64,000 bases of DNA from assembly GCF_043290135.1 (NCBI RefSeq), contig NC_134709.1, positions 65,202,556 to 65,266,555 on the forward strand, given 5' to 3'. The position numbers and the translations under genes were made by a program. Within the stretch, counting starts at the first letter, position 1. Every line of letters starts with the position of its first letter. Source of the DNA: Rhipicephalus microplus (taxonomy: Eukaryota > Arthropoda > Arachnida > Ixodida > Ixodidae). Below the pieces are notes generated by a model that was not told the DNA's origin, made no database searches, and worked only from the letters and a program-made list of their open reading frames with translations. Shown here one piece after another: positions 3,069 to 64,000 of this stretch.

Positions 3069-3104
3069 ATTACTCCCCGCGCAGAAAGGAGCCAACCTGC
3101 CGAC

Positions 3105-6642: not shown

Positions 6643-7862
6643 TTTTCCTCCTGGGCGTGGTTGGAACGGCGAAGCATGGGGGAAGGAGACCGAAGACGGG
6701 GTGAAGGAGATCGACGTCGGCTGAAGTCTGGTCGACGTGAGCGGGGGTCATGTGAATCAGGTGTCACATGCGATTCTGATTGCCGAGGTATGTTGCCGGA
6801 ATGCTGCACATCATTAAAATAGAATCCACGGCGACGACAGTAGCGCGCGACATGTCCTGGAATACCACAGTTGTAGCAGACGGGCCGGTTATCGGGAGTA
6901 CGCCAAGAGTTTACAGGTGCTCGAGGTGGTGGAAAGGGCCGATTTACCGGATAAACTGAAACTGGTGACCTGTAGTAGTTGGTGGCTGGACTGTATGAAG
7001 GGAGCGGCGGTTGGGCAGGAGGTCAGTGGACGGCTTCTGCATAAGTCAGCGGTGCCGCCACTGATATTGGGGATGCGGGCGAAGGTAGAGCCTCGGCAAC
7101 TTGCGTCTGAATAGCACGGCGAAGTGAGTGGTCCAGTGTTGTGGGGGTCTCGTTGATGGTGGCGACAAGAGAGAGCTGTCGAGCAACTTCCTCCCGGATG
7201 TACTGTTGAATTTGAGGCATTAGCACGCTGTAGTCGGGGCCACTACTTTTGCACTCCAAGGCCGAAATATCAGCTGTTTGCGTTTTAGCGCGACGTGTAG
7301 AAACTCATTGCTTGCGCAGCTCATCGAAACTTGGACATAACTGAATCACGGCCGTGACGGTCTGTGGGTCTTTGGCCACAAGCACATAAAAAGCGTCGTC
7401 ATCAATGCCTTTCATTATATTCTTAATTCTGTCAGCCTCCGTCATCCTGGCATCAACTCGCCTACAGAGGCTGATCACATCCTCAATGTAGCTCGTGAAG
7501 CTCTCACCATTTCGCTGAAATCGTCCCCGCAGTCCCAGTTCAGCACGAAGCTTACGCATGGCTGGACGACCGAAAAACGAGGTGACGGCCTCTTTGAAAA
7601 CCGACCAGGTGGGGATGTCGGCTTGGTGGTTGGTGAACCATAGGTTGGCCAAATCCGTCAAGTAGAAGATGACGTGAGTCAGCTTCGCAGGATCATCCCA
7701 CTTGTTAATCGCGCTGGCATGCTCGTACTCTGCCAGCCAGTCCTCGACATCTTGATCTTCAGTGCCGTTGTATACTGGTGGGTCACGCAGACGAAGTACA
7801 CCAGAACACATGACAGGTGGCAGCGTGGAAGAGCCTTGTGGGGGATCGACGCACTCGGTCAT
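6639..7862 (-). pseudogene. gag: Gag of element 2 with two premature stops
   Basis: The start is taken at ATG 7860-7862 and the stop TAA is at 6639-6641, 407 codons in one frame. The N-terminal half has the family capsid pattern (VYNGTEDQDVEDWL, FYLTDLANLWF, FTSYIEDV). The C-terminal half has a CCHC knuckle (CYNCGIPGHVARYC) and an SRRRSPSP-rich basic tail. Two TGA codons break it, at 7305-7307 and 7023-7025. At the first, element 4 has CGA (Arg) and element 1 has CGC (Arg), so this looks like a CGA to TGA change by CpG decay. The last codons GAA AAC TAA form the candidate frameshift site. Confidence 0.85.
6642..6648 (-). promoter_or_regulatory. Candidate -1 frameshift heptamer GGAAAAC, element 2
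   Basis: It abuts the gag TAA (6639-6641). A slip of -1 gives CTA ACA GTC, which runs open into the protease. This is the only simple way to express pol from the gag start here. No downstream hairpin was checked. Confidence 0.6.
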
Positions 7863-18107: not shown

Positions 18108-21100
18108 GTGGCAGTTACGCAACTACAGACAAGTGAAGTATATAGTAGCAACGTTACCTCCGAGATATTAGTCACGATCGACGACGTCGAGGCCATTGCG
18201 CTAATTGACACTGGTGCAGACTATTCTGTTGTCAGTAATGCTCTCGCAAAGAAGCTTAAGAAGGTGATGACTGAATGGATCGGACCTCAGATACGTACCG
18301 CTGGAGGGCACTTAGTTAGTCCCGTGGGGTTATGCACCGCAAGGATAGGAAGAAGAGGATTAGCGTATGCCGGCAGCTTTATTGTGCTTCCTGAGTGCTC
18401 CCGGGAACTGATTATAGGCATGGACTTTTTGCAAACAAACAATGCAGTCATCGACTTGCAAGAGTCCCAGGTTTCGTTTTCTACGGAGAATGCCGTCGCC
18501 TTCTGTCATGCGGAAAAACCAATCGTTCTACCTCTCCGCATTGTGGACGAAGATGTAATCGTGCCGCCACGTTCCAGTGTGACCATTCTTGTGAGGAGTG
18601 AAGTTCTCCGTGATTGTGACGGATTAGCGGACGGAAACATTGGACTGCTACTAGAAAAAGGAATATGCGTGGCAAGAGGCCTGGTAAGCCTTCGTGATGG
18701 ATGCGTGCATGTCCTATTAACCAACTTTCGAAATGAGCTGCAGCATGTTGCGAAGGGAACATCCCTAGCATCGCTGCATAAGTGCGGGCAAGTCTCAGAT
18801 GTTTGCACTCTTGATAAAGCTTCATAGACAGTAGATAACGTACTCCAATCAGTAGACATTGACAGGGAGGTCTCGTCACTTCAGAAGCAACAGATTGCTG
18901 ACCTCATCAGAGAGTTCGCCGAGTGCTTCTCCACCTCGTCGAAAGTCGGACGTACTCCCGTCGGAAAGCACCGTATCGTGGTCCAAGAACACGTGAGACC
19001 TGTGCATCAGCGCCCATACCGAGTAGCACCAAGAGAAAGGGAAGCCATCAAGAACCAAGTGCAGGAAATGCTCAACGATGAGGTAATCCAGCCATCCAAC
19101 AGTCTGTGGACATCACCGGTAGTGCTAGTCAAAAAGAAGGACAACACTCTGCGATTTTGCGTTGACTACAGAAAGCTGAACCAAGTCACAAAGCGTGATG
19201 TTTACCCACTTGCAGGGATCATTGATGCTTTGAATAAGTTACGCAATGCTCGCTTCTTTTCATCATTGGACTTAAAAAGTGGATATTGGCAGATCGAGGT
19301 GGACGAACGAGATCGCGAGAAGACGGCGTTTGTGACCCCAGATGGACTATACGAGTTCAAAGTGTTCCCTTTCGGTTTGTGCTCTGCTCCCGCTACCTTC
19401 CAAAGGATGATGGACACTGTGCTCTCCGGACTCAAGTGGCAATTGTGCCTCTTCTACTTCGACGATGTAGTGGTTTTTTCTTCTACCTTCGAGCGGCACA
19501 TACACCGACTGAGTATGGTACTGGATGCCATTCGCGTGGCAGCACTGACCATCGAGCCGGAAAAGTCACTTTGGATTTCATCAGCTTCATTTGCTCGGGC
19601 ACATAGTGCGGAAGGCGTCCACCCAGACCCGGAAAAGATTGCAGCAGTTGATAATTTTCCGAAACCGCAAGACAAAAAGGCCGTCAGACGATTCCTGGGA
19701 CTATGTCCCTACTCAGACGCTTTGTTGAAAACTTTGCTAAGGTCGCTGAGCCTTTGACACGGCTAACGAAAGAAAGTGTACCATTTTGTCGGCGGGAAGA
19801 ATGAGAAGCAGCTTTCTCAGAGTTGCGACGCCGTTTGCAGTCTCCTCCAATACTTGCCCATTTTCACGAAGAGGCCGATACAGACCTACATACCGACGCG
19901 AGTAACGTTGGTCTCGGTGCCATCCTTGTTCAGTGGCAGAACGAAGAAGAAAAGGTCATTGCTTACGCGAGCCGCACTCTATCGAATGCTGAGTCCAATT
20001 ACTCAGTGACAGAGAAAGAGTGTCTCGCAGTTATATGGGCCATCAGCAAGTTTCGCACATACCTCTATGGCAGACCGTTTCGAGCAGTCAGTGATCATCA
20101 TTCATTGTGTTGCCTGGCAAATATTAAGGACCCTTCAGGAAGACTTGCTAGATGGAGCCTGAATCTGCAGGAACATGACATCACTGTGGTCTACAAGTCC
20201 GGCCTCAAGCACAATGACGCGGATTGCCTGTCTCGCGCACCTGTTGAGTCTGCATCGTCTGACCAAGAACAAGACATCCCATTTCTTGGAGTTCTGAATG
20301 CGTCGGAGATGGCTCGTCTTCAGCGAATGGACCCGGAAATACGCCTGCTTATCCAGTGCTTGGAGGGTCACCAAATTAAGGTACCACGAGTTTTCGTCCG
20401 TGGTTTGACATCCTATGTCCTCCGGAACGACTTCCTATACAAGCGCAACTTCGGAAACAGTGGTGAGACGTTTCTGCTTCTTACACCATCATTACTGCGA
20501 GCAGAAACCTTAGAAGCGTGTCATGACGACCCATCGGCTGGCCATATGGGTAGTAGCGGCACTTTGGCCAGAATTCGCCGGAAGTATTATTGGTCGAAAT
20601 TAAGGGATTCGGTGCACCATTATGTTAAGTGTTGCCGGGATCGCCAAAGAAGCAAAACACTACCATCAAAACCAGTGGGTCTGTTGCAACCAATAGAGCC
20701 ACCAAAAGGGCCATTTCAGCAAGTGGGAATGGATTTGCTTGATCCATTTCCTCTCTCTTCATCGGGAAAGCGCTGGATTGTTGTAGCAACAGACTACATG
20801 ACTCGATATGCTGAGACATCACCTCTCGCGAAAGGAACGGCGAACGAAGTAGCCCAGTTTTCCGTCACTCAGATTGTAGTACGATATGGCACACCGCAGG
20901 TTGTCATTACAGACAAAGAAACAGCATTTACTGCCCGTTTGATGCAGTCTGTTATGAAGCTCACCCACACCGACCATAGAAGGACTACAGCATACTATCC
21001 GCAAACAAACGGATACACCGAAAGGCTCAATAGAACTCTCGCCGACATGATCTCGATGTATGTGCACGTTGAGCACCAGACTTGGGACAGTATTTTGCCT

Positions 21101-21573
21101 TATGCTACATTTGCGTACAATACCGCAGTACAAGAAACGACACACTTCACGCCATTTCAACTTGTTTATGGTAGGACGGTCACAACGACCCTAGACGCGA
21201 TGTTACCTGTCAACGATTCGAATGAGAGTGACCCACACATCAGCGACTACATAGAAAGGGCAGAAGAGGCACGGCAATCGGCAAGACATCGTATCATTTT
21301 GCAACAAGGCTCCGACGCAAGTCGCTATAATCTGAAGCGCAGAGACGTACATTACAACCCCGGAGACAAAGTGTGGGTGTGGACGCCTATACGCGCACCT
21401 GGACTATCGGAAAAACTGATGCGGCGCTACTATTTCGGCCCTTACAAAGTACTTCGCCAGGCACGCTAAACTACGAAGTAATTCCTGAAGGGCAAGTGTG
21501 CTCAACCCGACGCAGGAATCGCCCGGAAGTCGTGCATGTAGTACGAATGAAACCGTACTACGAAAGGCACTGA
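18108..21573 (+). pseudogene. pol: Pol of element 3: protease, RT, RNase H, integrase
   Basis: The protease motif is LIDTGAD, followed by the LIIGMDFL strand. TAG at 18825-18827 separates it from RT in the same frame. RT has VDYRKLN, SSLDLKSGYW and catalytic YFDD (19455-19466). A one-base deletion near 19710 shifts the frame, and a TGA follows at 19802-19804. RNase H (HTDAS, TEKECLA, SDHHS) and integrase then run to 21469. The integrase core keeps GMDLLD, TDKE and YTERLN, but the zinc finger has lost one cysteine (CCRDRQ). A last frameshift near 21460 puts the C-terminal VVRMKPYY segment in another frame, ending with TGA at 21571-21573. Confidence 0.9.
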
Positions 21574-36189: not shown

Positions 36190-39100
36190 CCGCCGCAGTT
36201 CAGGAGGCAAGAATTGCGCTGTCAAAATGCTCAAGTCCTCGGACATTGCCGTCAAATATTGTCGAAGTTTTTGTAGAAGGTACTCGAGCATATGCTCTAG
36301 TGGATACCAGTGCTGCCGTTTCCGTAATATACGCTAACCTTTGCCGCAAGCTTCGAAAAGTGACGACGCCTTTTGACATGATGCCTTTGCAAACAGCGAA
36401 TGGGGACCCGGTTAAGCCTGTAGCCACCTGTACTGTCCGACTGATGATCGCGAAGGACCACTACACTGTTGAGTTTATTGTTCTTTCGTCATGCTCACAC
36501 GACCTCACACTTGGATGAGATTTTTTATCGCGTAACCATGCCGTTATTGGTTGTGCAAGATTAGAACTTGACTCTTCCCGTTTTACGACCAACCATCCAG
36601 CCGCATTCAGCCCACCATACACAAACTCGTCGTCAAAGAAGGCACTGAAATTCCTCCGACAGCAGCTGTGTTGCTCCCTGTGTTTTATGACGGCAATAGA
36701 AACGAAGCTGCATTCTTTGAACCTTAAAGCCTCCTCCTTAGTCGAAGATCACTCCTTCTGCCTTATTCAACCCTCTCCATTTCTGAAGGAAACAGTTCTC
36801 TTTGCCTCATCAATCCCCTTCCGTATCCCGTCGAACTGATTCAAGGTGAATCTCTTGGACACGTGCATGCCATTGATAAAGAACATTTTTACCATGCCGC
36901 CAGATTGTTCCGGTGACTACGACGCCATCAGTGCCCTCAACCCTTCCAATGTACCACCTTCCGAGCTTTTTGATTCATCGATCGCCGACGAACTATCGCC
37001 ATCTGAACGCTCTGAGCTTCTTCAGCTGCTCTACCAGCTTCATGAATCCTTTGACGTTGCTCAACCTACCATTGTCTGAGCTCCCAGGCTCCCAGTTTTT
37101 TCACTGCATCGACACAGGTTCCAACGCACCAGTACGACAGCGACCATACCGTGTTTCCGCTACGGAACGTCAGGTTATCACCGAACAGGTTGACGATATG
37201 CTCAAGTGCGACGTTATCCGACCTTCCCAAAGTCCTTGGGCATCACCTGTCATTCTTGTTAAGAAGAAAGATGGTACAATTCGCTTCTGCGTTGATTACA
37301 GGCGCTTAAATAAGATCACTCGCAAAGATGTATACCCTTTGCCCAGAATTGATGACGCCCTTGATTGATTACAAGGTGCCGAGTTTTTTTCCTCGTTAGA
37401 TTTGCGTTCGGGGTATTGACAGGTGCCCTTAGAAGATGCCGATCGTTCGAAAACAGCCTTCGTGACACCGGACGGGCTATATGAGTTTAATGTCATGCCC
37501 TTCGGCCTCTGCGATGCGCTGGTCACATTCGAGCGCATGATGGACTCGGTTCTGCGGGGTTTGAAATGGAAGACATGCCTCTGCTACATCGACGATATAA
37601 TCGCCTTTGCACCCGATTTGGCAACACATCTTGTACGCTTGAAACATGTACTCACGTGTCTGAAGAATGCGCTGCTCCAACTGAATCTCAACAAATACCA
37701 CTTCGCTGCTCGGAAGCTCACCATTCTCGGTCACGTCGTATCAAAGGATGACGTTCTTCCCAACCCAGCTAAACTACGCGCTGTCACTGAATTCCCCAAA
37801 CCAACTACTGTAAAACAGTTACGCAGCTTCGTAAGATAGTGCTCCTACTTTCGTCGGTTCGTGCGCAACTTTGCCTCCATAATTGCCCCTTTGACCGAAC
37901 TTTTAAGCAGTGTCAATCACATCTCGTCATGGTCTTCCGAGAGTGATCACGCATTTACCACTCTTCGCCGTCTCCAGACATAACCGCCTATTTTGCGCCA
38001 CTATAATGCCACGGCTGCAACTGAGATCCATACAGACGCCAGCGGTATCGGTCTCGGTGCAGTTCTCGCTCAACGGAAAGCTGGAGCAACTGAGTATGTC
38101 GTCGCCTGCGCCAGCAGAACGCTCAACAAGGCTGAGGTAAACTACAGCGTCACCGAAAAAGAGTGCTTAGCCATACTTTATGCGATTGTGAGGTTTCGCC
38201 CATACATAGAAGGCTGCACCTTTGCGGTATTTACAGACCATCATGCCTTATGGTGGTTGTCGTCGCTGAAGGATTTATCAGGTCGCCTTGCTCGTTGGGC
38301 TCTGCGACTTCAAGAGTATGACATCCGCGTCATGTACCATTACGGCCGCCAACATGCCGATGCGGATGCGCTCTCGCGATCACCACTGTCCATTAAGGCT
38401 GTCTCTATACACGTGCTGTCAGCTCTTGACATCGACACAATGTCCTCCGCACAGCGTGACGATCCATGGAGAACTTTGCTTCTGGACGTTTTATCTGGGG
38501 TACCAAAACTTGCAACCACTCGAGCAATGCGATGCCAGGCTTTGCACTTCACCATTCGAAGTGACCTTTTGTACCCGGGCAATTACTCACCAGACGGCAA
38601 GAAGTGGCTGTTCGTTATTCCCCGAAAGCTGCGCTCTACAATCTGTGTCTCATTTCACCCCGACCAGCAATGCACTCACACCGGTGGCTTCAAGGCCTAC
38701 GAACGTTTACGGAAGCGGTGCTACTGGCGTGGGATGTTTACTTTTGTTCGACAGTTTATTCGTGGCTGCCACGAGTGTCAGCGACGAAAACAGCCATCGA
38801 ATCCAGGAGCAGCTCCACTACGGCCGCTTGCGTGCCCCGACCACCCATTCGATCACGTCGGAATCGACCTTTATGGACCACTGCCATTGGCCACAGCAGG
38901 TAAACGGTGGGCTATCGTTGCTGTAGGTCCCCTGACACGATAAGCCGAAACCGCTTCTCTTCCTACGGCGACCACTCAGGACGTCGCATCTTTCATCCTC
39001 CATCGGTTTGTGTTGCGTCACGGCCCTTCTCGCGAGCTCCTCAGTGACCGGAGCCGTGTATTTCTATCCGACGTAATCCAAGCACTTCTCCGTCAGTGCC

Positions 39101-48340: not shown

Positions 48341-49953
48341 ATGGGGGATCAAAACCCCATCCAGCAACTGGGACCAGGCCGACCACATCATATTGCGCCT
48401 GACGCAAGTTCTCACCCCGGCCCAAGCGTGGCCCTCGTTGACAATTCTGATGACTCCTCCGTTGAAGATATGGCTTCGGACAGTGACTACGTTGTCGTAC
48501 AAAGCCAACGCCTGAAGAGGAAAATCAGCCGGACATCGCCGACTGGCCGGCAAGCACAGACAAAGGCGAGTAGCATGCGGTCGTACACCACTTCGTATGT
48601 GCCGACATCGACGGCAGACATCTTGAACTTTCTAAATAGGCAGAGGCTGTCAGAGTACTTTGAGCTCATCGCTCCAGGGAAAGTCGTAGAAATACGCATA
48701 AATACCCGAAAGAACATACTGTCCGTGGAGGTCATTACGAAGGCCTTATTATACACGCTGAAAGTGATGGTTCGATTAGGAAACATTCCGGTTCGCGCAT
48801 TAATTCTCCGCGTACGACGAAGAAACGACAACAGGAGTTATATACGATGTGGATGAGGAGATAATAGACTCAAGTCTCTAGAAACTGTTGTCATCGTCGG
48901 CTCCCGGGCTTGGCTTCCACTGCTTTGGACGCACGCGATGTGTTAAAGTAGTGTTTCAGTCGAAGACGTTACCCACACATGTAAAAGTTGGGTACGTGAG
49001 GCACTCGGTACGTCCTTACGTACCAAAACCTCTGCAATGTCATAAATGCATGAAATTTGGGCACGTTAGTGCAGTTTGCAAGGGTGCAGTAACCTGCAAG
49101 CATTGCGGTGGCCTTCATGATGGTGATAACAGCAATGCTGCGGCCAAATGCCCAAACTGCTCAGGCGCCCACGACGCAACATCAAAGGAATGTCCCAAAA
49201 TTAGGAATGAAATTAGTATCCTGAAGAAGATGGTTCGAGACCACTCCACTCACAGAGAAGCTGCAAGGGCTGTACGGCGCCGTAATCATCGTTCGCGACA
49301 CCGACGCAAACGAAGCAGCAGTACTCATAGCTTATCGAATTCGACACACAAAACAGTGCCCTCACTACCTCCTAGCCTACTTTTGTCGGCCAGAAAGGAG
49401 AATACAGACGCTCAAATGCCAATACAGTCCACGCAAGTACAATGTAACCAGTCATTGGCTCTCCCCACGTCGGAGACTCAGTGGCCTTCACTACCGTCAA
49501 GAGCTGCCCCGCCACGGTGGTCTAGTGGCTAAGGTACTCGGCTGCTGACCCGCAAGTCGCGGGATCAAATCCCGGCTGTAGCGGCTGCATTTCCGATAGA
49601 GGCGAAAATGTTGTAGGCCCGTGTACTCAGATTTGGGTGCACGTTAAAGAACCCCAGGTGGTCAAAATTTCCGTAGCCCTCCACTACGGCGTCTCTCATA
49701 ATCAAATGGTGGTTTTGGGACGTTAAACCCCACAAATCAACCGTCAAGAGCTACGGTAGCGCCATCATCACATCACAGTGCCCCTACCCCCAATTAAGAA
49801 AACAAGAAGATGGACAACGCAGATGCCAAGGCTATGCTTAAAAATTTGATGGGTTCGATGCCTAAGATTCTCAGCAGCCTAAACACTCCCGCTGCTAAGG
49901 CGGCTGTGCAGCTACTTGAGGTTTTGGAGCCCCTTCTATTGGTTCTTCAGTAA
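48341..49953 (+). pseudogene. ORF1 (Gag-like) of the I-group LINE
   Basis: The start ATG 48341 opens MGDQNPIQQLGPGRPHH. A serine/aspartate-rich stretch (VDNSDDSSVEDM) and a basic KRKISRTSP segment follow. One or more indels between 48856 and 48930 move the frame. The middle part (48888-49505) carries three CCHC-type knuckles (CHKCMKFGHVSAVC, CKHCGGLHDGDNS-type, CPNCSGAHDATSKEC) and a basic RRNHRSRHRRKR region. A SINE interrupts it at 49506-49739. The last part from about 49810 reads MDNADAKAMLKNLMG and ends LLLVLQ, TAA 49951-49953. Expected role: binding LINE RNA. Confidence 0.82.
49506..49739 (+). mobile_element. Complete tRNA-derived SINE (Ruka-like) with 13-bp target duplication
   Basis: It begins with a tRNA-like head: A box in GTGGTCTAGTGGC and B box in GGGATCAAATCCC. 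A body follows with GGGTGCACGTTAAAGAACCC and GGACGTTAAACCCCAC. The 13-bp ACCGTCAAGAGCT occurs just before (49493-49505) and just after (49740-49752), a clean duplication of LINE ORF1 sequence. RNA polymerase III would transcribe it from the internal boxes. Confidence 0.92.
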
Positions 49954-49959
49954 GTGAAC

Positions 49960-52918
49960 ATGGCACTGATGTTCGAAGAACGCATGCGACAGTGGCTTGT
50001 TATGCAATGGAATGCTCGTGGCCTACGTGCCGCCTGTCAGACTTCAGACAGTGGGTTTTTAAATATCGATTTCCTGTTATCGTTATATGTGAACCGAATA
50101 TGGTTTCAACTTTTCGTATATCTGGATATATCCAGATTTGGTCCCGCAGTGACCAACGTACGAGCAAAGTTCTTGTTTGTATACGCCGTGATTTGACGTT
50201 CTTGAGACATGAAGTCGCGTCGCATACCAGCAATGATTACGTGAGCCTGACTATAACACATAAAAAGCGGACATTCTCCGTAATAGGAGGATACATACAC
50301 CCAAGCGCACAGATGGACTGCTTCCACCTGGGGACCATTCTTCAAGCAGCACAAAGGCCACACATTGTGATCGGCGATTTTAATGCACATCATCCTCTCT
50401 GGTGTAGCACTACAACAAATTATCGCGGAAAGGATTTAGCCAATTTTATATACAACTATGAACTAAGCGTACTCAACGACGGATCACCTACATTTGTTCG
50501 TGGCACGTCCTACAGCAGCTGCCTCGACCTCTGTTTGGTTTCCAGAAGCCTCCTGTCTTCCGCATGTTGATGCACAGATTTGGACACTCGCGGCAGTGAC
50601 CACCTTCCAACCTATGTTCATTTCAGGTGGTTTCACCGCACGCACACACGCTACATCCGTCAAACCGACTGGACACTGTTCAAGGCATCTGTCAAGTCTG
50701 GCTGTGAGCACACGACTGATCCATCCGAGGTAGAGAACATCATTGCTTCTTCACTGCGTGACACAATCAAACAGGTTAACCTACCGATGCAGAGATCAGC
50801 AGTTGACTAACAATACGAGGCCCTTCGTGCAATCTGTCGCCATGCCAAACGCCGATACAGACGAACGAAGTCGCCTTCAGACCTTTCCGCCTGTCATCTA
50901 GCTCAACGACATGTTCTTCGGCATCTTAACAAGATTGACAGGCAACGTTGAAGAAATTTATGTGAATCTCTGGACCCCAGGCAACCTCTATCTAAGATAT
51001 GGCGGGTGGTACGAAGTTTGCAGACAACTCCCCAACAACGTCAACCATTTCAAGCTGTTGCTCTACATCACGGACGGACAGAAGTTGAGATAGCCAGTGA
51101 CTACTGTAGCCTCATCGTGGACACCACTGATGGTCTTGCTACTAATGAGCCTCTTACTACCATTGCGCCTCCATCGTCTGACGAGCGCCTTGATGTACGT
51201 TTTACAATACATGAGTTTGACGCTGCGATTTCTGCCTCCCGCCGATCATCGGCACTAGGACCTGACAGAATAACGTATGCTGCACTCAACCATCTTGATA
51301 CAGAAGCACGACGTATTCTGTTATCTCATTATAACACCTCATGGGAGTGAGGAGAAGTCCCAGCTAATTGAAATGCAGTCGCATTATTGTATTGCTTAAG
51401 CCGGGGAAGTGTCCTTATGCACTTTTCTCCTACAGACCAATCGCGTTAGCCAGCTGCGTCGGAAAAGTGATGGAAAGAATGGTACTGGCAGGATTAGAGT
51501 GGCTTCTAGAGAGCCACAACTCCTTTCCTGCATTTATGAACGGCTTCAGAAGAGGCCGATCTGCCATTGATGGTGTGGTCGACTTGATCAACAGCGCTGA
51601 AGGGGAAAGAAGTCGACGCAGACTAGTGGCAGCGGTCTTCTTAGACATTAAGGGTGCCTACGATAATGTGCTGCATTATGTGATCCTTGACGAACTGGAA
51701 GATTTCGACATCGGTGGACGACTGTACGCTTGGATTTTTAGCTACCTTAGGAACCACACCATTTACATGACGACAAGTAACGGAGACACCGATCGATATT
51801 AGGTTCATCGTGGTGTTCCCCAAGGAGGAGTTCTCAGCCCGATCCTATTCAATGTCCCAATGATCGGCCTAGCAGCAGAACTTCCCAGCACGGTGAAGAT
51901 CACTGCATACGCTGATGACATATGCATATGGGCATCCGGAACTACTGGTCCGCGATTGCGAGCTCGACTACAGCGTGCAGTGACGATCACATACAAATAT
52001 CTACGACGTCAGGGGCTCACTCTTTCAATCGACAAACGCGCAGTGCTTGCGTTCACGCGCAAGCATATGTCACAATACCCGATATTTATTAATGGGACAG
52101 CGATACCTGCTGTAACGCACCACAAGTTCCTTGGGGTTGTCGTACGCATAGATGTATCGCGGACGAGGCATGTCGCAGTACTTAAATCTAAATTGAAGAG
52201 CTTTTCTCTCATTCTTCGCCACGTAGCAGGAGCAAGATGGGGCCCATCAGAATCATCGCTACTTTAATTGTACAATGCTCTATCTGTGGGATACAATCGA
52301 TACAGCATGCCAGTGCTCTCCAATATGAGACCTATTTGTGTGAAGACACTAGAGAGTGTTCAAGCTCAATGCTTACGAAGATGCTTGGGCCTACCGCGCT
52401 GTACTTCAACAAATGGGACAATCGCAGAGGCTCGGGCTTGTCCGATCAGTGTATACATGCTCTGCGAGTCACTAAGAGTTCACCTCCGACTACTGAGCAG
52501 ACACAGACAGCACCCACTGTCAGTACTACCCGCCACTCACCCAGATTGCAGTTTCTCAAGAATAATATTGTGGCATGAAAATAATACACCATCAAGGTTT
52601 TCTCCGCCAAATGCCCCTGCAGTGCCACCATGGGTCCTGCCTAAACCACCTGCCTCTTTTACGATACCTGGAATTACGAAGAAGTTGCTCATTTATTCTG
52701 TTGGCCTCGGACAACTGACCCTACATCACATTTATACAACGTACAGTGATTCTATGCAGGTGTACACTGACGGATCCACCACGCTAATCACCTCCGCCGC
52801 AGCCTTTGTCATCCAAGACATGGATATCGCTCGATGATTCAAAGTGGACCATAAAACCACATCAACTGCCGCAGAGCTTGTCGCTGTCCGGGAGACAATA
52901 AGGTTTATTTCCGGAGAG
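49960..52918 (+). pseudogene. ORF2 of the I-group LINE, part 1 (endonuclease, RT, RNase H start)
   Basis: The start is at ATG 49960, nine bases after ORF1. The endonuclease motif QWNARGL is followed by a frameshift near 50030, then EPNM, VIGDFNAHHPLW and TRGSDHLPT. RT begins after 51000 with LGPDRITYAALN. A frameshift at about 51360 follows, then SYRPIALASCVGKVMERM, FLDIKGAYDNV, GVPQGGVLSP and catalytic YADD (51908-51919). In-frame stops lie at 50568, 50808, 51800, 52265 and 52835. RNase H begins with YTDGS and reaches the glutamate motif STAAELVAV before the LTR element cuts in after 52918. Enzyme role: target-primed reverse transcription of the LINE. Confidence 0.9.
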
Positions 52919-53680
52919 TGTTGCGACGCTGCCACCACTGTTGCGACGCGCACCTCCGACGACGTTACGAAGGGCGCTACGAATCTCACCGCTGCAACCA
53001 CTGTTTCGAAAGACGGCGACGCCAACATGGTCCCGAAGGCGCCGCTGCTTCGAACTCCGCCGGGAAGGTCACCAGCCGTTTGGTAGCGTAGGTTTCTCAG
53101 CTCGCCACTGCTTCTGCGCAGAGCTGATAGACGAGCGAACGAGATGACGGTGAGTTAAACAAGGTTTATGTACAGCATATATACAGAGGCGTTACAAATT
53201 CGGCACTGGGGCTGACAGAGATTCGAAGAGCCGAGCTCTCCTCTCTAACACATAGGTCTGCTCTAAAATGGGTCTGCTGTCCAAGGGGTCTCTCTCGACG
53301 CGCCGCAGGGCTTCTTTTATATGCCCCGGGTCCAACCTAAATGTCCAACCCGAAGCGCCACTGGTCGCAAGGTCAGAATCCTCCAATGAGGGCGCCGCTG
53401 GGCTGCGTCCTTCTTTCTCATCGAATCTGGAGAGGCTGCGCTGCAGGTGGCTGCACCCAAGGACGAGTGACGTCGCCGCGCATTGCGTCAGCCGCCAGAC
53501 AGGAAGACGCCGGTTGTTTACTCGACGGGCTCGCGGCTGCGCTGACTCACTGCACGTGGGCGACAGAAAGGCGCCGCGCGTGTTTACGCCGTTGAGTTGT
53601 TCGCGTCAGGCGGGCTGGCCTTGACACAGATTGCCTTTTTCAGAGGCACGAACGTCTGCTGTGGACTCGCAGGCATAACA
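52919..53680 (-). repeat. 3' LTR of element 5
   Basis: 762 bp and uninterrupted. It matches 57081-57458 joined to 61563-61960. Confidence 0.93.
53314..53321 (-). promoter_or_regulatory. TATA box in the LTR of element 5
   Basis: TATAAAAG on the minus strand, conserved in the other LTR at 61582-61589, in a GC-rich setting. A plausible promoter of the element. Confidence 0.5.
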
Positions 53681-54373
53681 GCACCCCTGCCGCCAGACAA
53701 TGCGCCAAAAAGACAAGCTGCTTCCACGTGGCTCGCATGACAGGCACGCTCGTTCGCCAGGTCCCACCAGGTTCGTCTCCAAGCCATGGGGAGAATGCAG
53801 CTCCAGACTCTGTTCCGGGAACACATCCCATTCTTGAGGACGGATCCCAGCTCCACTGGCTTGTCGCCACAACTTGCCGGCCAGCTTCACTCGTCTCTGA
53901 CGATCCTTGGTTTCAGCACTTGTCGATGGTTCTGCAACTTGTCAAGAACGGTTCGACAACAGACAACACACGACACAAGCAAGTGCCCTCGGTCACCCGA
54001 CAGAACACCAGACAACGTATAGTTCAACATATACCTAGCTACGTGTCTATCGGAATTTCGTTCCCTCTGCATCAAGAGGCACATGTGGGACACAAGACTC
54101 CTAAAATGAGAGCTCATTTTTTTACACGTACAACAGTGTAACGAATTAGAATACCACATATAGTTGGCCCCTTGAGATCACTCTGAACGAGAGCGCTCAG
54201 CCCAGGTCGTGATGAGGTCAAAATTTTGCCCCGAATTGCCAGCGAGAAACCGAAAGGTTGAGAAGGTACTAGCTAGAACGCACTGCTCAATGTACCTGCA
54301 TTAGCGTATCGCTCTCCTTTTTTTTTTTTGGAGCGAACGTCAAAGTTGTGCTGTTGGAGCATCATGCTCCATC

Positions 54374-55186
54374 TCAATAACCGGCCACTTTTAGGCGACG
54401 ATACCTATGCGGTACCAAGAGCTGATCATACTTGTGACGTTGCAGAGGGGAACAACGATACTGTTTGCTAGGGATTGGCTCCTCACAAGTTAGCTCGATA
54501 TCGTGTTCGATCACCGTCGTGTCTCCGGGACGGTCCGAAAACGCGTATCCGAACTCGGAAACAATCCTTTTCAGGTACTCCTTCTGGACTTCACTTAACC
54601 AAGTCTCTAGGTTCAACTGCTCCAAGATTACCTCCGATTTCCTTTCGATTACCTCACTAGAACTAAAAATTTCTGCTCCCTCTTCCTCTTCAGCATTCAA
54701 AAGGAGATTTACGACCGCTTGATGTTGAACGTAGGGTTTCATCAAGTTGTAAATTTTGTTCTGCCGCCTTCCTAATTTCACTTTATAATTCGTACCGGGA
54801 AGCTTCGATATTACATTGGCAGGCATTTCCCAATCCACCTCAAGCTTTTTCCTTTTGGACGGCTGCAGCAGCATTACCTGACTTCCTACCTCAAAAGCAC
54901 GCTTCTTCGCCGATTTGTCGTAGTAATCCTTTGACAACATTTGTGAAGCTTTCATGTGGCTTTCCTCTAGCGCTTTCATCGAGAGGTCCTCACGCTGCTC
55001 TCGAATGAGCGTCTCCCGATACACCCTCGACAGCTCACTCCAACTTTCCGCTACAGGCGAGAGCGTTGCGCCCCTCTCGCTCTGACTCAATGGCGCCATG
55101 TCGTCTCCCCCTACGCATACCGCGCCGGTCGCTTCGGCGACGGGCCGCTTGAGTGACTGCTCAAACGACTCACACAGAGAATGTGT
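54374..55186 (-). pseudogene. pol: Pol remnant of element 5: integrase C-terminus fused to RT start
   Basis: In the same frame as gag-protease, after one TAG at 55187-55189. From the N-terminus: a linker, then the integrase C-terminal region (SWSELSRVYRETL, a helix rich in charged residues, FEVGSQVMLLQPSKRKK, LPGTNYKVKLG, LMKPYV), then after about 60 residues the N-terminal RT entry (LKRIVSEFGYAFSDRPGD, EHDIELTCEEPIPSKQYR). Integrase before RT is the order of Gmr1-like Ty3 elements, opposite to elements 1-4. The integrase zinc finger and catalytic core, and RT beyond its entry, are deleted. The frame ends at 54374. Confidence 0.75.
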
Positions 55187-56778
55187 CTAAGGTTCCGTCG
55201 ACTCACCGCCAAGGTCACACAGATCTGCTACTTTTGAACTTGTTTTACCACACAGAACAAGATCAAGCTCCCGCGAAAGCTTCCGCGCTTGCGATCGCGT
55301 GAGGGCCATGTACGCTAAGTTGGGAAAAAATGATTTACCCTGTTCTTTGAGAAGCTGCTCTGAGTTGTTAGAGAAAAGATAAGGAAAACGATCGGGAAGC
55401 GCGGCAGACACAGCCGCTTCGGTGCGAAGCTTACCGAACGGGCCTTCAATGACAACCGTAGCGATCGGTAAGCAAGCACTCTGCTCCTCGGCGACTTGCC
55501 TGATCCACGCGCATTCTCCCGTAAAGTCATCCGGAGACACCAATGAAGGATGGACAACGTCCATGGGTGCCGCTGAGTCTCTAAGTGCTCGGCACGTTTT
55601 CCCATTCAAACTAAATTCTTGGATATACGGCTCTAACAACCGCATGTACTTTTTCGATTCTCGAATTGTTGCGAAAGCAAACTTTTGCTTACAGTTTATC
55701 GCGATGTGCCCTTCCTTTTTGCAGTTGTAGCAGATTAGTGGCTTCCGTGATTCAAACGCCCGTGTGGTAGAAACCTCACTCGATTTCTTCGCTTCCGTTT
55801 GCCCTTCCCCTACAGTGTCCTTCGTAAGAGACGGGTCCTTCTTGAAATTACGGTGCGGAACGGGTTTTCGTTGATCATGTTTCCTTGAAAAGCCCTCTTT
55901 CCTTTCATCATTTTCAACGCGCACTGCCCTGCTATGCAACTTTCGGCGAGTATAATACTCCTCAGCTAACTCTGCTGCCTTGTTTAGCTGTACTTCACCA
56001 AGTCTGTCCTGCAGCCAAAGTTTGACATCCTCCTCGATGCAGCGGTAGAATTGCTTAAATGCAACGCATTCCACCACTTTATCGCGGTCGTCTTAAACAC
56101 CTTCGCCCTTGAGCCATTCAATTAAATCGGCTTTAAGACGAAACGCGAAGTCAACGTGTGACTCATTCCCCTTTTTAGCATACCGAAACCTTTGCCTGAA
56201 AGCCTCGGGTGACAACTTATAACGTCTCAAGAGCACTTCCTTAACCTCTTCATAGCTCTCAAACGCTTCCCTCGACAAGCAAGTTATCACGTCGGACACT
56301 TCGCCGGGAAGAAGAGCTAACAGGTTATGCGCCCAAAGAGACCGCTCCAAAGCGTTTCGCTCACAGACGTGTTCAAACTTGACGGATACTTCGCCATGTC
56401 CTCGCCTATTACGAACGGTGGCAGTTGGTCCCGAATTCTAAAACCGCTGACCTGAATCGTCAGAGAAGCTACGCTAGGTGCCTGCGAACACTGTAAGATT
56501 GCCAATTCTATTCGTTTCAACTCGAGGCGCTCCTGTCTCTCGGCCTCCTCGCGCTCGCGACGTTCTCGCCTTTCAGCTTCTTCACGTTCGCGAGCTTCTC
56601 GCCTTTCAGCCTCCTCGCGGCGTGCTTTGATATCCACCCAGGCCTCATCGACTTCCTCAGCTGAGACTCCCTCATCCTTCATGATCTCAAGGATCGCTTG
56701 CATTCGTTTCGCACGGCCCAAAGTAATGCCGAGTTCCTCACAAATTTCAATGAGTTCCTTCACTTTAAGGTTCTCCAT
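55187..56778 (-). pseudogene. gag: Gag-protease of element 5 (SAP-like, SCAN-like, CCHC, protease)
   Basis: The start is at ATG 56776-56778 (MENLKVKEL), giving a SAP-like helix pair (KVKELIEICEELGI) and then a coiled coil of REREEAERR repeats. A one-base frameshift near 56390 precedes a SCAN-like capsid region: LWAHNLLALLPGEV, AFESYEEVKEVLLRRY, AFRQRFR. An in-frame TAA lies at 56093. The rest (55187-56077) has a basic region, a CCHC knuckle CYNCKKEGHIAINC and a protease-like domain whose active site reads LRDSAAP (DSA in place of DTG or DSG). SCAN-like Gag is known from Gmr1-like elements. Role: particle formation and processing. Confidence 0.8.
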
Positions 56779-57080
56779 CGTACACACTAGCCTCTTGCTG
56801 TTTGCCCCTGTTAAGAATCTACTTGCCGTACCCACTATAAGCCTACTAGCAATACGCGCAAGCAATTTTAAACACTCCCGTTTACACCCTGCGCATTAAC
56901 TTTGGTTTCAAAGCGCTTCGACTTGGCTTGAAACAATCAAAGCTCACTTCAATGCTTCACACAGCCCTTCTCTAAACTACTACAACCCGAGCTAGAGTAG
57001 TCTGGTGAACTGAGGGGAAAACATCAGGCACTCACCGCATCGATGTAGCTGACGCCGGCCGAACCCACCGCTGCCACCAC

Positions 57081-57458
57081 TGTTACGACGCTGCCACCAC
57101 TGTTGCGACGCGCACCTCCGACGACGTTACGAAGGGCGCTACGAATCTCACCGCTGCAACCACTGTTTCGAAAGACGGCGACGCCAACACGGTCCCGAAG
57201 GCGCCACTGCTTCGAACTCCGCCGGGGGAAGGTCACCAGCCGTTTGGTAGCGTAGGTTTCTCAGCTCGCGACTGCTTCTGCGCAGAGCTGATAGACGAGC
57301 GGACGAGACGACGGTGAGTTAAACAAGGTTTATGTACAGCATATATACAGAGGCGTTACAAATTCGGCACTGGGGCCGACAGAGACTCGAAGAGCCGAGC
57401 TCTCCTCTCTAACACATAGGTCTGCTCTAAAATGGGTCTGCAGTCCAAGGGGTCTCTC
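57081..57458 (-). repeat. 5' LTR of element 5, inner piece
   Basis: 378 bp, continuing at 61563 after the 4.1-kb insert. It differs from LTR 1 by nine substitutions and a 2-bp indel. Confidence 0.92.
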
Positions 57459-60400
57459 CACCTACCAGTTTAGAGAACGGAAACTGTACCTTTGGGCTGT
57501 TGTATCAAAATAACATGCAAATTCGTAGCGGCGGCGTGCTGAACTGCAATACCGCGAGGCGAGGTGGCGCTAGTAGTTCTATCATCATCAATAAACAGAC
57601 GCATTTTTTTGTTGCAGGTGGAGAGGGAGGAGGCTCGCGGCTGGTTCGCGCTGCTCCCTTCCTCTGGGTTTTTTTTCGTTGCCAAATCGCGTTTCGCGTC
57701 TGTAATTATCGCCAGGGGACCTAGCTGGCCTCGACTGGCAAAAACAACGTAAATCAAGTAAGGTTTGCATCGTTTATTACGAGTGTGCAAGCCGGTACAA
57801 TCAATGTATACGGTCTGGTCGGAACAAAACAAGTCACTCATACATATCGAAAGCTTTCAACCCATGTGTAAAGACTCTTGAAAGTTAACAAGCATATGCA
57901 TATAACTGAACATCTAAATCGCTGAATGAACGTCGCTCTCATTGTGTTATGGCGCTCGAGTTTAATAGCGTGGCTTTAGGGCAAGGGTCCGATTCTGCCG
58001 TCAGATGCTGCGCTTGCCCCGTAGGGTTGATCTTAGACCGAATGCATGATGTGGAATCGGGAAGGAAACTTGTACATTGCCGATAGATAGCTCGCGCAGT
58101 TAGAGCAAGGTAGCTTTGCTAAATTTGTTAAATAAGCAATTGCGTATGCGTGCATTTCCGAATCATTCTCGCTCTGCAATGCTACAATGAGTACTTCATA
58201 ATTCTGTAATGTTGCGTCGTGTCGAGAGAGTAGGCACTAGTTTTAATACTCAGCCGTGAGCCCATATCATAGGTAGTATGTATTTAGGGGCTGGGCTTAA
58301 AAATATTTCAGGCTTGCTACATTTATTGTTAGAGTTAAGTTACACAGTTACCACAGCTAGAATTTCTCGTCGCAGGTAATGACCAGTCTGCTGAGTATGC
58401 AGCGAACATGCATGCTAAAGGGACACTTATGAGGTGTGTGCTTACAGATCGAAAAGGCCCGATTCTAAAAAAATAAGCTTCAGGTATGCATTGTACAATT
58501 TTGTTGTCTGTACATCTTTGTTGGTACTCTTACATCACACTATCTGCTCAGCCCCGAGCACAAGCTCTTTTTTTGCATAGACATATCCATAGAACTTGAG
58601 TACTCTCTTGCAAGCAAGCACTCCTGAAATCAATTGGTGGTACATGATGTGAATCTGTCCGAATACTGGTTCAATAAAGGTCACATTTATTACACACTTG
58701 TTATTATGTTTACTTTTTCAGTATACTTGTGCTTGAAAATGAAGTTGTTTTCTCCCTGCTACTTTTAGAGGTTAGGACTTGAAATACGAACTATCTTGCA
58801 GTGTGGCTGTAGATAAGTGAAGATCATGTATGTTTCAACAACCTGTGCGATTTCCAAGATTTTTTTTTCATGACCGTAGTGCACAGAATTTCACTTCGTA
58901 GTGGTAGACACTATAGTTATGACAACTTAATTTAAACAGAAGCAGATGTGCACAAAGAAATCTGGAACGTTTTTCTGCCAAAAAAAAAAAACAGTAACAC
59001 ATGCAATGAACACAATCTTGCTCTTCATGACAGCATTCACGTCTTTCAAGAAGCTGTGCTGCAACTGCTCATCACCTTTATGATTTATTATTTTAGGAGC
59101 CCATTGAACAGATGTGCAGAGCTAAAGCAATTGAATGCAGTCTTATGAGCTTTGGTGCATCTTTTTGTAAACTTGTATGAGCTAAACACAGTTAATTAAG
59201 ACAAAACAGTTCTGGGTGTTGTTGGTAAACTGTCACACGGCGCAACTAAATGTCGGAAAGCTTGTTTATGCCCATCACTGTGGGTGTGTTCATTATGTAG
59301 TGCAAATAATAACTTCCGACGATTCACATGCCAACTATGAAGTGATCGTGAGTCGTACAGTAGTGGGCAAATTTAGATTGATTCTGGCTTCCAGGGGTTC
59401 AAACAAATGACATTGTAGCCTCACAGGAGACAAGATTGCTTGTCGAAACATTTGATTTGACCCCTTATGTTAACATATTTTTCATATTTTCAAGCTTCCA
59501 TCTTTTAAGGGTCAGTTTAGTTCCCCTGCACCAATCCGAACTGGTTCACAGCTGTGCACAAAAAATTTAGAACTTGTGCGGCAGGAGTTCAGCGGTGCGG
59601 CATCACAAGTGAATGACAAGGTGCTGACAAGGTGGAATCCCTAATTTTTTGTTCGCTTAATTTAATGAGGTGCAAATATCTTGGCAAAACACGCCGCATT
59701 TATAGAGGTGGGTACAGCACCTACGTCTAATGCTATGTTGTTTGGCTGTGCGAGCGGCTGCACCTAACCAGCGCCGTCAGAGCAGAAGGTACAGGAAAGT
59801 CATGAAATAGTTTTAGTGCTTTACTTCTCCTGCGCTTTTTGAAATGAATGGCAAGATTTAGAAGATGCCACTGCTGCGCCACTGAAACGAATGGCGAGGT
59901 GCAGCACTTGGTAAATTGGATTATGTGGTGCAGGCGAATCGAACAAACCCTTAAGCACACAAACGTCTTAGCGTTTCACCCCCATCGAAATATGGCTACA
60001 GTGGCTGGGATCAAACAGTGTGTTGTTGAGCTCAGCATTGTCACACAATCTAACTAATAGTGTTACAGTTTCAACATTATTGAAGTGTAGATTCCGTGCC
60101 ACGGTAGGCAGGCAATGCTTGTAGTCAATCTAGAGCACTTCTCCACGATATGCGCGGTAAAACATTCACAAAAACAGCATTACATGTGTGAGGTTAGAGA
60201 TGACCTGTTGTAGTGGACATTCAGATGTTTCAACGTGCTTGCAGAGTGGACATTCGGGGGTAGTCATCCTGTCTCTGCATGGCAGTCTGGAAAAACAAGT
60301 AACATCTCCAGATATCAATGCAAGAAATTTTCCAAAGTAAACAAATAAACTCAGTTAATTAGTAAACAGCAGTATTTTATACATATATGTAGTGGTACCT

Positions 60401-61554
60401 CATAACACGTATATCACTCAGGGCTGCTTCTTCACAAGGCATGTCATGTAGCAGGTTCCTTGCCCATTGCACACATTTGCTTCCATGTCAGGTGGGCCAG
60501 GAGGCTGTGGCAGAAAAAGAAGTATTTCTCATTTATGTGACGCTTCCTTTGTCACACTATAGCAAAACCAGACCAATAACTATGTGATGTTTTTCAAACG
60601 CGACTGCAGTAAACTATACTTTACCTAGTAGGTTTTTTGCACTATTATATGGGCTGGTTAAGAAGACACATGCGAGGCGACAGTGATTTATTTGCCTTCT
60701 TTTACCGCAACGGCCTGGTTGGTGTGACCTGGTGATAGAATTTCAGAATTAGCTATTGAGTCAGCGACTCGTTGCCACGTGAAGCCATGCTCGCCGCAAG
60801 TAACGCACGTTTTTCCTGTTACAGATTGAGACGTTCAACAATTTTAAAATTTAATACTGCAATGCGCTGTCACCATGTGACGCCTACGCAGTCATTGGCA
60901 AAAAAAACTACATATGTTGAAATGAACCAACTAGCCCCACAAGCAGCCATCCTTAAAAAACTGAAGTGGGTTTCTACTCATCGGCCCGGGCTTGCAACGG
61001 GTGTTCATCCGATGAAAGCTTCAACGGTCGCTTCGTTCCCCGAAAGTCACTCGAATTTTCTTCGCGAAAGCATTTGAACGAGTCAAAATAAACAGAATGA
61101 GAAAGAATGTGTCGGTCGGCAGAATATCGATGTATTTACAGCGAAACGAAACAGTTTGAGACACCTGCGAGCGTACCGCGAGCCGTCACCTGCCGTCGCA
61201 ACCGTTGGCCGCCGCAAACTTTAAAATGAGGATAATGATGTCGATAGGCTGCCACTGACATCGAGTCAGCTGGAGCAAAAACTATTACAGAAAGTTGATG
61301 ATGCAGCACATGTTTAAGAAAAACCCTTTGCTAGAAGGTTAAAATGTTTTTCATGTGTAGCGGTACGCAAACATGTAGTATTTGATCATTTTAAAATAAA
61401 ACTTGGCCCCGACGAAGGCGCCTCTACAAGAAAGTGCAATAGCGCGAGTGGGGAGAGAGGTTAGTAGATCCACTCTGGGTGTTTGAAGCAGAAACGCGCC
61501 GCGGTTGATTTTTTCGCCCCCTACAGGTGAGCACTTGAACTTGAGAGTTTCCGA
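57459..61554. mobile_element. 4.1-kb insert of unknown type with 8-bp target duplication
   Basis: It splits the LTR exactly. GGTCTCTC stands on both sides (57451-57458 and 61555-61562) and once in the intact LTR at the same site. The ends read CACCTACCAG...GAGTTTCCGA and do not form an obvious inverted repeat, though CGGAAACT occurs near both ends in opposite orientation. An 8-bp duplication would suit hAT or P-type transposition. AT-rich inside, no long open frame. On the minus strand at 60507 and 60289 two stretches look like exons after pyrimidine-AG acceptors (see findings). Confidence 0.65.
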
Positions 61555-61960
61555 GGTCTCTCTCGACGCGCCGCAGGGCTTCTTTTATATGCCCCGGGTC
61601 CAAGCCAAATGTCCTACACGAAGCGCCGCTGGTCGCGAGGTCAGAATCCTCCAATGAGGTCACCGCTGGGCCGCGTCCTTCTTTCTCATCGAATCTGGAG
61701 AGGCTGCGCTGCAGGTGGCTGCACCCAAGGACGAGTGACGTCGCCGCGCATTGCGTCACCCCCCCCCCCCCCCCCAGACAGGAAGACGCCGGTTGTTTAC
61801 TCGACGGGCTCGCTGGCGGCGCTGACTCACTCCACGTGGGCGACAGAAAGGCGCCGCGCGTGTTTACGCCGTTGAGTTGCTCGCGTCAGGCGGGCTGGCC
61901 TTGACACAGATTGCCTTTTTCAGAGGCACGGACGTCCGCTGTGGACTCGCAGGCATAACA
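61555..61960 (-). repeat. 5' LTR of element 5, outer piece
   Basis: Includes the second GGTCTCTC. It has a C-run (about 61758-61777) not present in LTR 1. Confidence 0.92.
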
Positions 61961-61964
61961 AGAG

Positions 61965-62675
61965 CGACCTCGAGCCTGGATGATTTTCTGTGATGCAAAA
62001 CCCGCTTTGCAAACCATTAATTACATCATGAAGCAAGGTCCGTATTACAGCTTGGCAATAGAAATCACAGAACTTATTCAGGTTGCTTCAACAAATAGTC
62101 ATCATATAACTTTCCAATGAATTCCCGCTCATTGGGGCGTGATGGGAAACGAAGAGGCAGACGCTGAAGCTAAAAATGCCTTAAGCAGTGCCCCTGAAGT
62201 ACGTATTGCGTTTTCACGAGCTGACACGAACGTCCTGCTTCGCTGCGTGATGCGCAGCTACACACTTCAGCACTGGACCAAACCAGAACGGCGACACCAG
62301 CGACTTCACAAATGGGACCCGGAAATGAGGTTCCCCAAGCCTCCTAAATTAAAATAGCGACTCACAAGTATGATCCACTGCATTCGTCTTGGTGTAGCGT
62401 ACACCAGACGTTACGCACATATCATCGGTCGCAGTGACACCGGTCCTAATTGTGAACATTGTGATGTGCCAGAAACACTTGAGCACATATTTTGAGTCTG
62501 CCCAGCATACGCACGTGAACGACAAACACTGATTTATTCTACTGAACTATATCACAGTAGGTCATTAACTGATGAGAACATGTTGGGCCCTTGGCCAGAC
62601 ACCAACAGTGCAACTGTGGTCACAAGAGCAGTTATTACCTTTTTAGAAACAACTGGACTATGTGCGCGGCTATAA
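61965..62675 (+). pseudogene. ORF2 of the I-group LINE, part 2 (RNase H end, C-terminus)
   Basis: Continues the reading from 52918 in register. The third acidic motif is FCDAKPALQTI, then AHWGVMGNEEADAEA supplies the last RNase H motif. A C-terminal tail includes a CCHC-like stretch (CEHCDVPETLEHIF, then C). Stops at about 62116 (TGA where W of WIPAHW is expected), 62355-62357 (TAG) and near 62494 (TGA). The ORF ends at TAA 62673-62675. The 3' UTR has AATAAA near 62828. Confidence 0.88.
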
Positions 62676-62848
62676 AATGTGTCTCAGCTAGAAAGAACAC
62701 TACATACTCAACTCTCTATCTCACCATCGTCATCCATTAATCTTTCTTTTCCCCTTTCTCTTCCCCCAGTGTAGGGTAGCAGGCTAGAGCAAGCTATGGC
62801 TCAGGCCGACCTCTCTGCCTTTCTGTAAATAAACTTACCTCCTCCTCC

Positions 62849-64000
62849 TACAATCAAAGCTTCAGCCATTGCAAATCCTTCAATATCAATCTGAAGCTGA
62901 ACGAATATCGGATGCCTCGATGGCATGGTGGTGCATGACGCAAAATCCTTCATCGTGACGCTGACGCTCGCACAGTTGGCCGCTTGTTACCTCACGGCTC
63001 GCGAATGCGCCAGTGCAGCCCGATTTACATAGTCCGCTTACATGTTTGTAAAAAAATGATTCAATCATAAACTAAGGGCTTGACAAAATGTGCCAAAATT
63101 TCGCTGACACCTTTGTGAAGGCAGAAGGCTGCTTACCAGACTAAACACAGCTTATGATTTAAACTAGGATGTCACAGCCCCTGTAGGATTTTACTTTTTT
63201 AGCGCACTGTAGGAACAAGATGGTAGACAAAATAACAACTCGGATACAGTGCTAACGTCTGACGTGTGGTTTATTTCACTAGCTTTCACGCCAATAAATA
63301 GGTGGTAAACAAGCGCGCGCAGGCGAATTTGTAAGTAACAAAAAAGGAAAACATACGTGTTTTTTTTTTCGAAAACACGTATACAAACTGGTGTACAGAA
63401 TGATGACACTTGATTTTGCATAACTCATATCATTATGCGAAATGATGAAGGCGAGATGATGATGAGGTCGACGTGCTAAAATAGTGCAGTGTATTATCGA
63501 TATGCCCAAGCCTACACTGTATATCATTTAGAACAATAGCGCAAAGTGTAATGACGAATTGGATAACGCATCACGTGAAAACTGACTGCATAACGCTCTC
63601 GGCGAGAAACCCTTCATTACTTTTTCAAGCACGTGTACCTCGGGATAGGCACGTTTCTAAAACGCTCGCGTACGCGCGCCCACGGCGAGTCCCTCCCTGC
63701 GTGCCGACTGGGGCCGCACGCACGGTCGCCGCACTTTACTCCGGCCAAGAATGCGGGCCATAAAATTTAATTAAACGAGCGCTCGTGATCCTGTGCGATT
63801 TATTAGCTGCCTCTTTGAGAGAGATGGACAAAGAGCCGTATACTTGCGATGGGAGAGCGTTACTGTGAGAATTTGAAAACAAGCAAAGAAATATATGTAA
63901 CCAGGAAATAGAACCGCAGGCGTAATGGCGTTGAACGAATGGATATGCGAGAAGCCGGTGCAGTCTCGGCTGTCTCCGACTTGTCGCAGTGCCATTCTTC
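62849..64000. other. No gene; possible Penelope-like end fragment
   Basis: 63180-63400 contains CAGTGCTAACGTCTGACG and GTGGTTTATTTCAC, similar in block order to 43180-43230. The last 350 bp are CpG-rich in part (63640-63760) without a recognisable gene. Confidence 0.4.

Follow-up and report, generated by a model that had tools for sequence, protein, structure and literature searches.

The 64,000-nucleotide stretch of contig NC_134709.1 of the cattle tick Rhipicephalus microplus that we analyzed (hereafter the window, within which all positions are counted) carries on its minus strand a long terminal repeat (LTR) retrotransposon, which we identify with a probability of about 0.92 as a Gmr1-like Ty3/Gypsy element of this tick, the copy here being a non-autonomous derivative. 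The element is flanked by a target-site duplication AGAG, recognized by eye (52915..52918 and 61961..61964, plus strand). Its 3' LTR (52919..53680, minus strand) spans 762 base pairs (bp), from TGTTATGCC to GCAACA. The 5' LTR is split by a nested insertion of 4,096 bp (57459..61554), bounded by the 8-bp direct repeats GGTCTCTC at 57451-57458 and 61555-61562. The first part of this LTR (61555..61960, minus strand; probably U3) likewise starts with TGTTATGCC and is 93% identical over 406 columns to 53680-53287; the second (57081..57458, minus strand; probably R-U5) ends in AACA and is 97% identical to 53294-52919. The LTR pair differs at 25 of 770 aligned sites (Kimura two-parameter distance, K2P, 0.033). 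Adjoining the 5' LTR is a candidate primer-binding site (57062..57080, minus strand), proposed from its position and from a similar TGG-start stretch at the same place in the autonomous-type copies described below; no tRNA match was assigned to it. Together, TG..CA LTRs, a short target duplication and a Ty3-type reverse transcriptase (RT) mark the element as Ty3/Gypsy.

Between the LTRs, the minus strand from 56778 to 54374 opens with the start of Gag and its SCAN-type capsid; a CCHC knuckle comes next, then a protease region marked by a DSA site, and last an integrase C-terminus that runs into the beginning of an RT. The peptides quoted in a first-pass annotation of this DNA all lie here and, except for the Gag start, share one frame. 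Gag opens with MENLKVKEL.. (56778-56728), and its N-terminal region (56500..56778) comprises the start codon, a predicted helix-extended-helix and a long charged helix, judging from the sequence and the structural model of a relative, L049. The SCAN-type capsid C-terminal domain (55943..56209) is cut by a stop at 56093, and its halves match SCAN positions 1-37 and 41-87, each below the Pfam cut-off. A CCHC zinc knuckle (55691..55732; zf-CCHC E-value 7.8e-6) is followed by the aspartic protease region (55277..55640; DSA site at 55594-55544), for which the predicted model of the same region in the full-length copy L037 is retropepsin-like. The integrase C-terminal remnant (54740..54958), containing FEVGSQVMLLQPSKRKK (54895-54845) and NYKVKLG (54790-54770), is joined in frame to the RT entry (54443..54600), containing YAFSDRPGD (54547-54521) and EHDIELT (54508-54488), and the frame ends with a stop at 54374. 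The integrase-before-RT reading of the first-pass annotation is thus confirmed in the letters of this copy. An out-of-frame RNase H remnant and the 3' untranslated region (53681..54399) complete the element. The copy is broken: the reading of Gag shifts from the frame 56895-56317 to the overlapping frame 56437-56093, and in-frame stops close two frames, at 56093 and 55187. Moreover, with two deletions that leave both integrase and RT-RNase H incomplete, it lacks what an autonomous element requires.

Integrase upstream of RT in full-length copies

In most Ty3/Gypsy relatives RT precedes integrase. The integrase-RT piece of the window, taken alone, gave neither a Pfam integrase or RT match nor a PDB sequence match up to an E-value of 1; it was identified via longer relatives, because in L037 the same segments, lying within an 88% DNA match to positions 2739-3282, are Integrase_p58_C and a stretch that leads into RVT_1. 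When the piece was searched against the genome, every one of the 142 scored matches (out of 9,874 candidates, and including the window's own copy) spanned the integrase-RT join, starting no later than query residue 13 and ending no earlier than 266, with 76-100% identity, and chance is therefore rejected as the source of the join.

The order is likewise found in longer sequences. In the public R. microplus protein P0003, a post-protease spacer leads directly into Integrase_H2C2 and rve, and a genome search with this protein (100 matches scored of 90,985 candidates) returned 56 of 100 at 95% identity or more, with open frames of up to 1,557 amino acids. Of 20 loci retrieved, 11 have an uninterrupted frame across all 4,242 bases. 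In L037, Pfam recovers within a single frame SCAN (9.1e-11), zf-CCHC (1.6e-5), Integrase_H2C2 (3.9e-21), rve (1.4e-10), Integrase_p58_C (5e-7), RVT_1 (4.9e-28) and RNase H (RT_RNaseH_2, 8.5e-22), in that succession, and the best PDB match of its RT piece is Ty3 (3.9e-56). We label such open full-length copies autonomous-type, a name suggested by their sequences. The LTR pairs of six of them differ by K2P 0-0.0032, 4-bp target duplications can be read by eye in five of the six, and Pol ends ..NADALSRAFS in all six 3' pieces. The autonomous type is young and open, and the integrase-before-RT order is real in the R. microplus genome. Two other elements of the window (3108-5864 and 18828-21466) are RT-first and offer a contrast within the same DNA. 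The first-pass annotation had proposed a genome search for full-length copies as a check on the order, and the ones recovered carry both enzymes in a single open frame, integrase first.

A second integrase-first lineage with a SCAN Gag is represented in the same tick by P0047 (LOC142775380), which is 65% identical in the RT region, has a DSG protease and groups with an Ixodes protein.

SCAN exceeds the Pfam cut-off in L026, L015, L009, L019, L037 and L049, in keeping with the SCAN-like Gag that had been read from the window. We also built a SCAN profile from the protein set assembled for the trees below; over proteins P0125-P0206 it hits 45 of 54 integrase-first ones, some of the nine misses being short at the N-terminus, versus 1 of 25 RT-first ones, at 18 bits; hence, the SCAN-type Gag goes along with the integrase-first order. 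On the Gag model, Foldseek and VIA returned capsids, weakly, with no SCAN chain among the best 50 rows of either. For the SAP-like N-terminus that had been proposed for Gag, the Pfam results list no SAP match; what appears there is Rho_N, below the cut-off (E-values of 0.027 in the window, 0.014 in L049 and 0.0027 in P0063), together with the predicted helix-extended-helix. The DSA protease site that had been singled out is present in the window element and in some other tick rows, and counts as one of the clade's variants, with DSG and DTG more frequent among the rows examined.

A derivative lineage with common deletion junctions

DNA mapping to L037 and to L051, the 3' piece of this autonomous-type copy, resolved the window copy into three retained segments: Gag-protease (90.5% identity), the integrase C-terminus with the RT start (88%) and the RNase H end with the 3' region (87%). 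Between the first two, about 900 bp encoding the integrase zinc finger and core are deleted (junction 1, 54951..54972, minus strand). Between the last two, most of RT-RNase H is gone and a 50-nucleotide filler copied from the integrase N-terminus stands in its place (junction 2, 54394..54443, minus strand; 84% to L037 1917-1966). By eye, we place junction 1 on TGGAAAGC and junction 2 on GCAA and GTCGCC. Of the RT entry claimed in the first-pass annotation, the start of RT stands, while the apparent continuation is integrase-derived filler and out-of-frame RNase H. The stretch ..YDQLLVPHRYRRLKVAGY is accordingly ruled out as continuing RT, and ..RYRRLKVAGY, once considered as the Pol C-terminus, was dropped, this tail being filler plus shifted RNase H and unlike the autonomous-type ending. 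Neither the two deletions with their filler nor the splitting of the 5' LTR had been noticed earlier.

Among L001-L030 the script could orient 29 loci, all but L023, and every one of them has both junctions. In L031-L050, three loci (L031, L040 and L049) have junction 2 with an intact integrase, and 17 have neither junction. Genome-wide, allowing up to 3 mismatches, junction 2 has 1,890 matches, a number that takes in integrase-bearing copies, and junction 1 has 401, from a pattern that misses variants found among the loci; these figures count junctions rather than elements, and the reversed patterns have 0. The window copy is thus a decayed derivative with two internal deletions, from a lineage in which the core of integrase and the bulk of RT-RNase H were lost and Gag and protease retained, with deletion junctions common to many copies.

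Among stop-free derivative loci, the ratio of nonsynonymous to synonymous substitution rates (dN/dS; non-independent pairs) is 0.26 in protease (n=12), 0.55 in Gag (n=10) and 0.71 in the integrase-RT remnant (n=13); versus two autonomous-type copies, it is 0.16, 0.31 and 0.52, respectively. Such values would be expected of a lineage in which Gag and protease are still of use and the remnant is less so, and they lend indirect support to mobilization in trans. That the derivatives are instead dead relics or segmental duplications, with no mobile lineage behind them, we hold to be unlikely. The window copy is indeed broken, many listed copies contain stops and some stand in regular arrays, such as L020/L021; yet the junctions are common to loci on many contigs and have the genome-wide counts given above, some copies have open frames of 700-870 amino acids, the protease has a dN/dS of 0.26, and a 4-bp duplication of its own flanks the window copy, whose target was a long interspersed nuclear element (LINE).

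Regular copy spacing, of about 6 kb at C25 3928398-3953683 and about 4.2 kb at C6 12089019-12094053, suggests arrays. As a separate observation, the same filler replaces RT-RNase H in L031, L040 and L049 while integrase is intact, and two of these three are mosaic-like: L031 and L040 are 99.4% identical to L037 in integrase and 92.6-92.8% just past it, which looks like recombination, whereas L049, at 98.9% just past integrase, bears no mosaic sign.

Placement among integrase-first elements

An RT-region search from L037 (7,973 candidates scored) returned 3,426 proteins at E-values up to 1e-10, and the best 120 of these include ticks of five genera, spiders, the beetle Onthophagus and a few plant, algal and pseudoscorpion proteins. 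A full-length search from P0068 gave 182 matches, the best 120 of which extend to frogs, fishes, amphioxus, acorn worm, clam and prawn. Across 207 proteins (206 plus L037), integrase precedes a single RT in 153 and RT precedes integrase in 25; of the rest, 16 are without integrase, 5 are without RT and 8 have more than one RT. Trees were computed from 52 of the 153 integrase-first proteins, chosen by hand to cover the range, together with each of the 25 RT-first proteins that have a single module; the 8 tandem proteins and the 21 missing a domain were excluded, save that of Ptychodera, which has no integrase found and stands in the RT tree outside the counts.

The RT-RNase H tree has 78 rows; in it, a branch with bootstrap/SH-aLRT (Shimodaira-Hasegawa-like approximate likelihood-ratio test) support of 100/99 has all 52 integrase-first rows on one side, and the 52/25 split by order is present in 100% of 200 bootstrap trees. 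The integrase tree splits the same 52 rows from the RT-first ones with SH-aLRT 97. In both cases the tree programs warn of long branches. The sampled integrase-first elements come from arthropods, a mollusc, amphioxus, fishes and frogs. Within them, ticks, spiders and the beetle, with four further rows, form a clade (SH-aLRT 100 in a quick RT tree and 99 for integrase), and the sole Penaeus row lies outside it. Both RT and integrase of the tick family group with integrase-first vertebrate elements, including Xenopus tropicalis rows. These we take to be the Silurana of PMC4131045.

By order, Gag and tree, on trees made of the rows above and not including the named Gmr1 type elements, the family is Gmr1-like, and the clade assignment made in the first-pass annotation gains support from the same three lines; its tick host was also correctly recognized. 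For the link between Gag type and order the spiders are the weak point, P0057 being without a Pfam SCAN match. That the order evolved independently in arthropods, so that the tick clade would be Gmr1-like in working and lie outside the Gmr1 clade, seems to us quite improbable. A rearrangement of this kind could recur, the tick, spider and beetle rows make a clade of their own, and the trees are without named Gmr1 elements; against this, a single change of order is enough on the RT tree in all bootstrap trees and also on the integrase tree, and the SCAN-type capsid accompanies the order. The first-pass annotation had itself raised the chance that an internal deletion or rearrangement joined a 3' integrase to a second RT copy; as an event in one copy, this would have drawn the RT from an element of normal order. 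The two deletions with filler and the RT-first elements in the same window (3108-5864 and 18828-21466) lend this some color, but it retains next to no probability given the join common to all scored matches, the full-length relatives that keep the order in a single open frame and the separation of integrase-first from RT-first rows in two trees.

As side observations, P0060, an integrase-first element annotated in an archaeal metagenome-assembled genome, groups with a spider protein in a quick tree and is probably eukaryotic contamination, and a viral-contig scan with P0119 gave 4 stretches and no relative.

Probable mode of propagation, known systems and neighbors

LTR elements that have lost autonomy, keeping Gag while borrowing Pol, are a familiar class. 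The tick derivative is like them in retaining Gag and protease, losing RT and integrase and occurring in many copies, and unlike them in its integrase-first parent and its filler copied from integrase. Autonomous-type RNA would be translated as one polyprotein and then cut by the protease, so that integrase and RT would work as separate enzymes whichever their order. Because derivative copies are without RT and integrase they need a helper, and their RNAs may be packaged with Gag, with RT and integrase borrowed in trans. The deletions and filler probably arose when RT switched templates at homologies of 4-8 nucleotides: one event would have led out of RNase H to integrase and then to RT, and another would have skipped across integrase; the filler event may be the earlier one, as integrase-bearing copies also have filler. 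The integrase-derived filler can be seen as a clear fossil of such switching. The window copy would have inserted in the LINE, decayed and then received the nested insertion. More tentatively, it is possible that an arthropod integrase-first SCAN-Gag branch has produced in the cattle tick a derivative of long standing that parasitizes a retrotransposon while encoding its own Gag. This derivative would have discarded Pol, kept Gag and protease under selection, and reached hundreds of copies with ongoing recombination with its autonomous parent. The full, intermediate and doubly deleted copies in this genome offer material for studying such element-on-element parasitism.

The Gmr1-like clade of Ty3/Gypsy is credited to Goodwin and Poulter 2002 in PMC8220671, which describes an annelid family. 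Gmr1 is one of five Gypsy clades occurring in several phyla (PMC8556966), and crustacean Gmr1-like elements with integrase upstream of RT were termed the first in protostomes (PMC3587641). The first-pass annotation expected that a tick element would widen the picture beyond deuterostomes: the tick elements are there, but that limit had already gone with the crustacean and annelid reports. The kind is already known and ticks extend it. Among the titles listed in our literature search, which in two instances covered 20 of 2,056 and 30 of 479 entries, none deals with Gmr1-like or SCAN-Gag elements in ticks.

Like frog and fish Gmr elements, the tick elements have integrase upstream of RT, a SCAN-type Gag (a domain that more than half of the frog Gmr elements possess; PMC4131045) and LTRs a few hundred bp long, and their long single Gag-Pol frame of up to 1,557 amino acids resembles the 1,506-1,634 of fishes (PMC11117352). 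They differ, as far as those texts describe, in the tick host, the DSA site and the numerous derivative without integrase core and RT. The crustacean GyRex4, Gychoro2, GyMaja1 and GyLiva4 are also from arthropods and author-assigned to the Gmr1 clade (PMC3587641); GyRex4 and GyRex5 are non-overlapping sequences, and the word SCAN is absent from that text. The Ixodes scapularis Ty3/Gypsy clades Mag, CsRn1, Squirrel and Toxo (PMC4748124) share the tick host, a CCHC Gag and 4-bp duplications, but are described there with two open reading frames and, in the part available, without an integrase-first order; for Squirrel and Toxo the comparison is by description. The open full-length copies and two trees establish SCAN-Gag integrase-first Ty3/Gypsy elements in ticks, with close relatives in spiders and a beetle. 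Since SCAN is thought to derive from a Gmr1-like or retrotransposon capsid (PMC4592553, PMC6525542), the capsid type held to be the source of vertebrate SCAN proteins belongs to an element clade with members in protostomes as well as deuterostomes.

The LINE hosting the window element, on the plus strand, has an RT match at 51368-51799; it occupies 49920-52918 and 61965-62860 and is apparently split by the LTR element, its sequence appearing by eye to continue past 61964. The idea that this copy starts at a transcription start through LINE copying was dropped, the seemingly absent U3 being located beyond the insertion at 61960-61555. Elsewhere in the window, an RT-first Ty3/Gypsy element (3108-6747, minus strand) has an aspartic protease frame and then a frame of 919 amino acids with RT, RNase H and integrase. 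Two further Ty3/Gypsy pieces lie on the plus strand, one with RT, RNase H and integrase (18828-21466) and the other with RNase H followed by an integrase zinc finger (37984-38940). Two programs predict tRNA-like sequences, at different places (3025-3114, minus strand; 49511-49583, plus strand), which are possibly repeat-derived.
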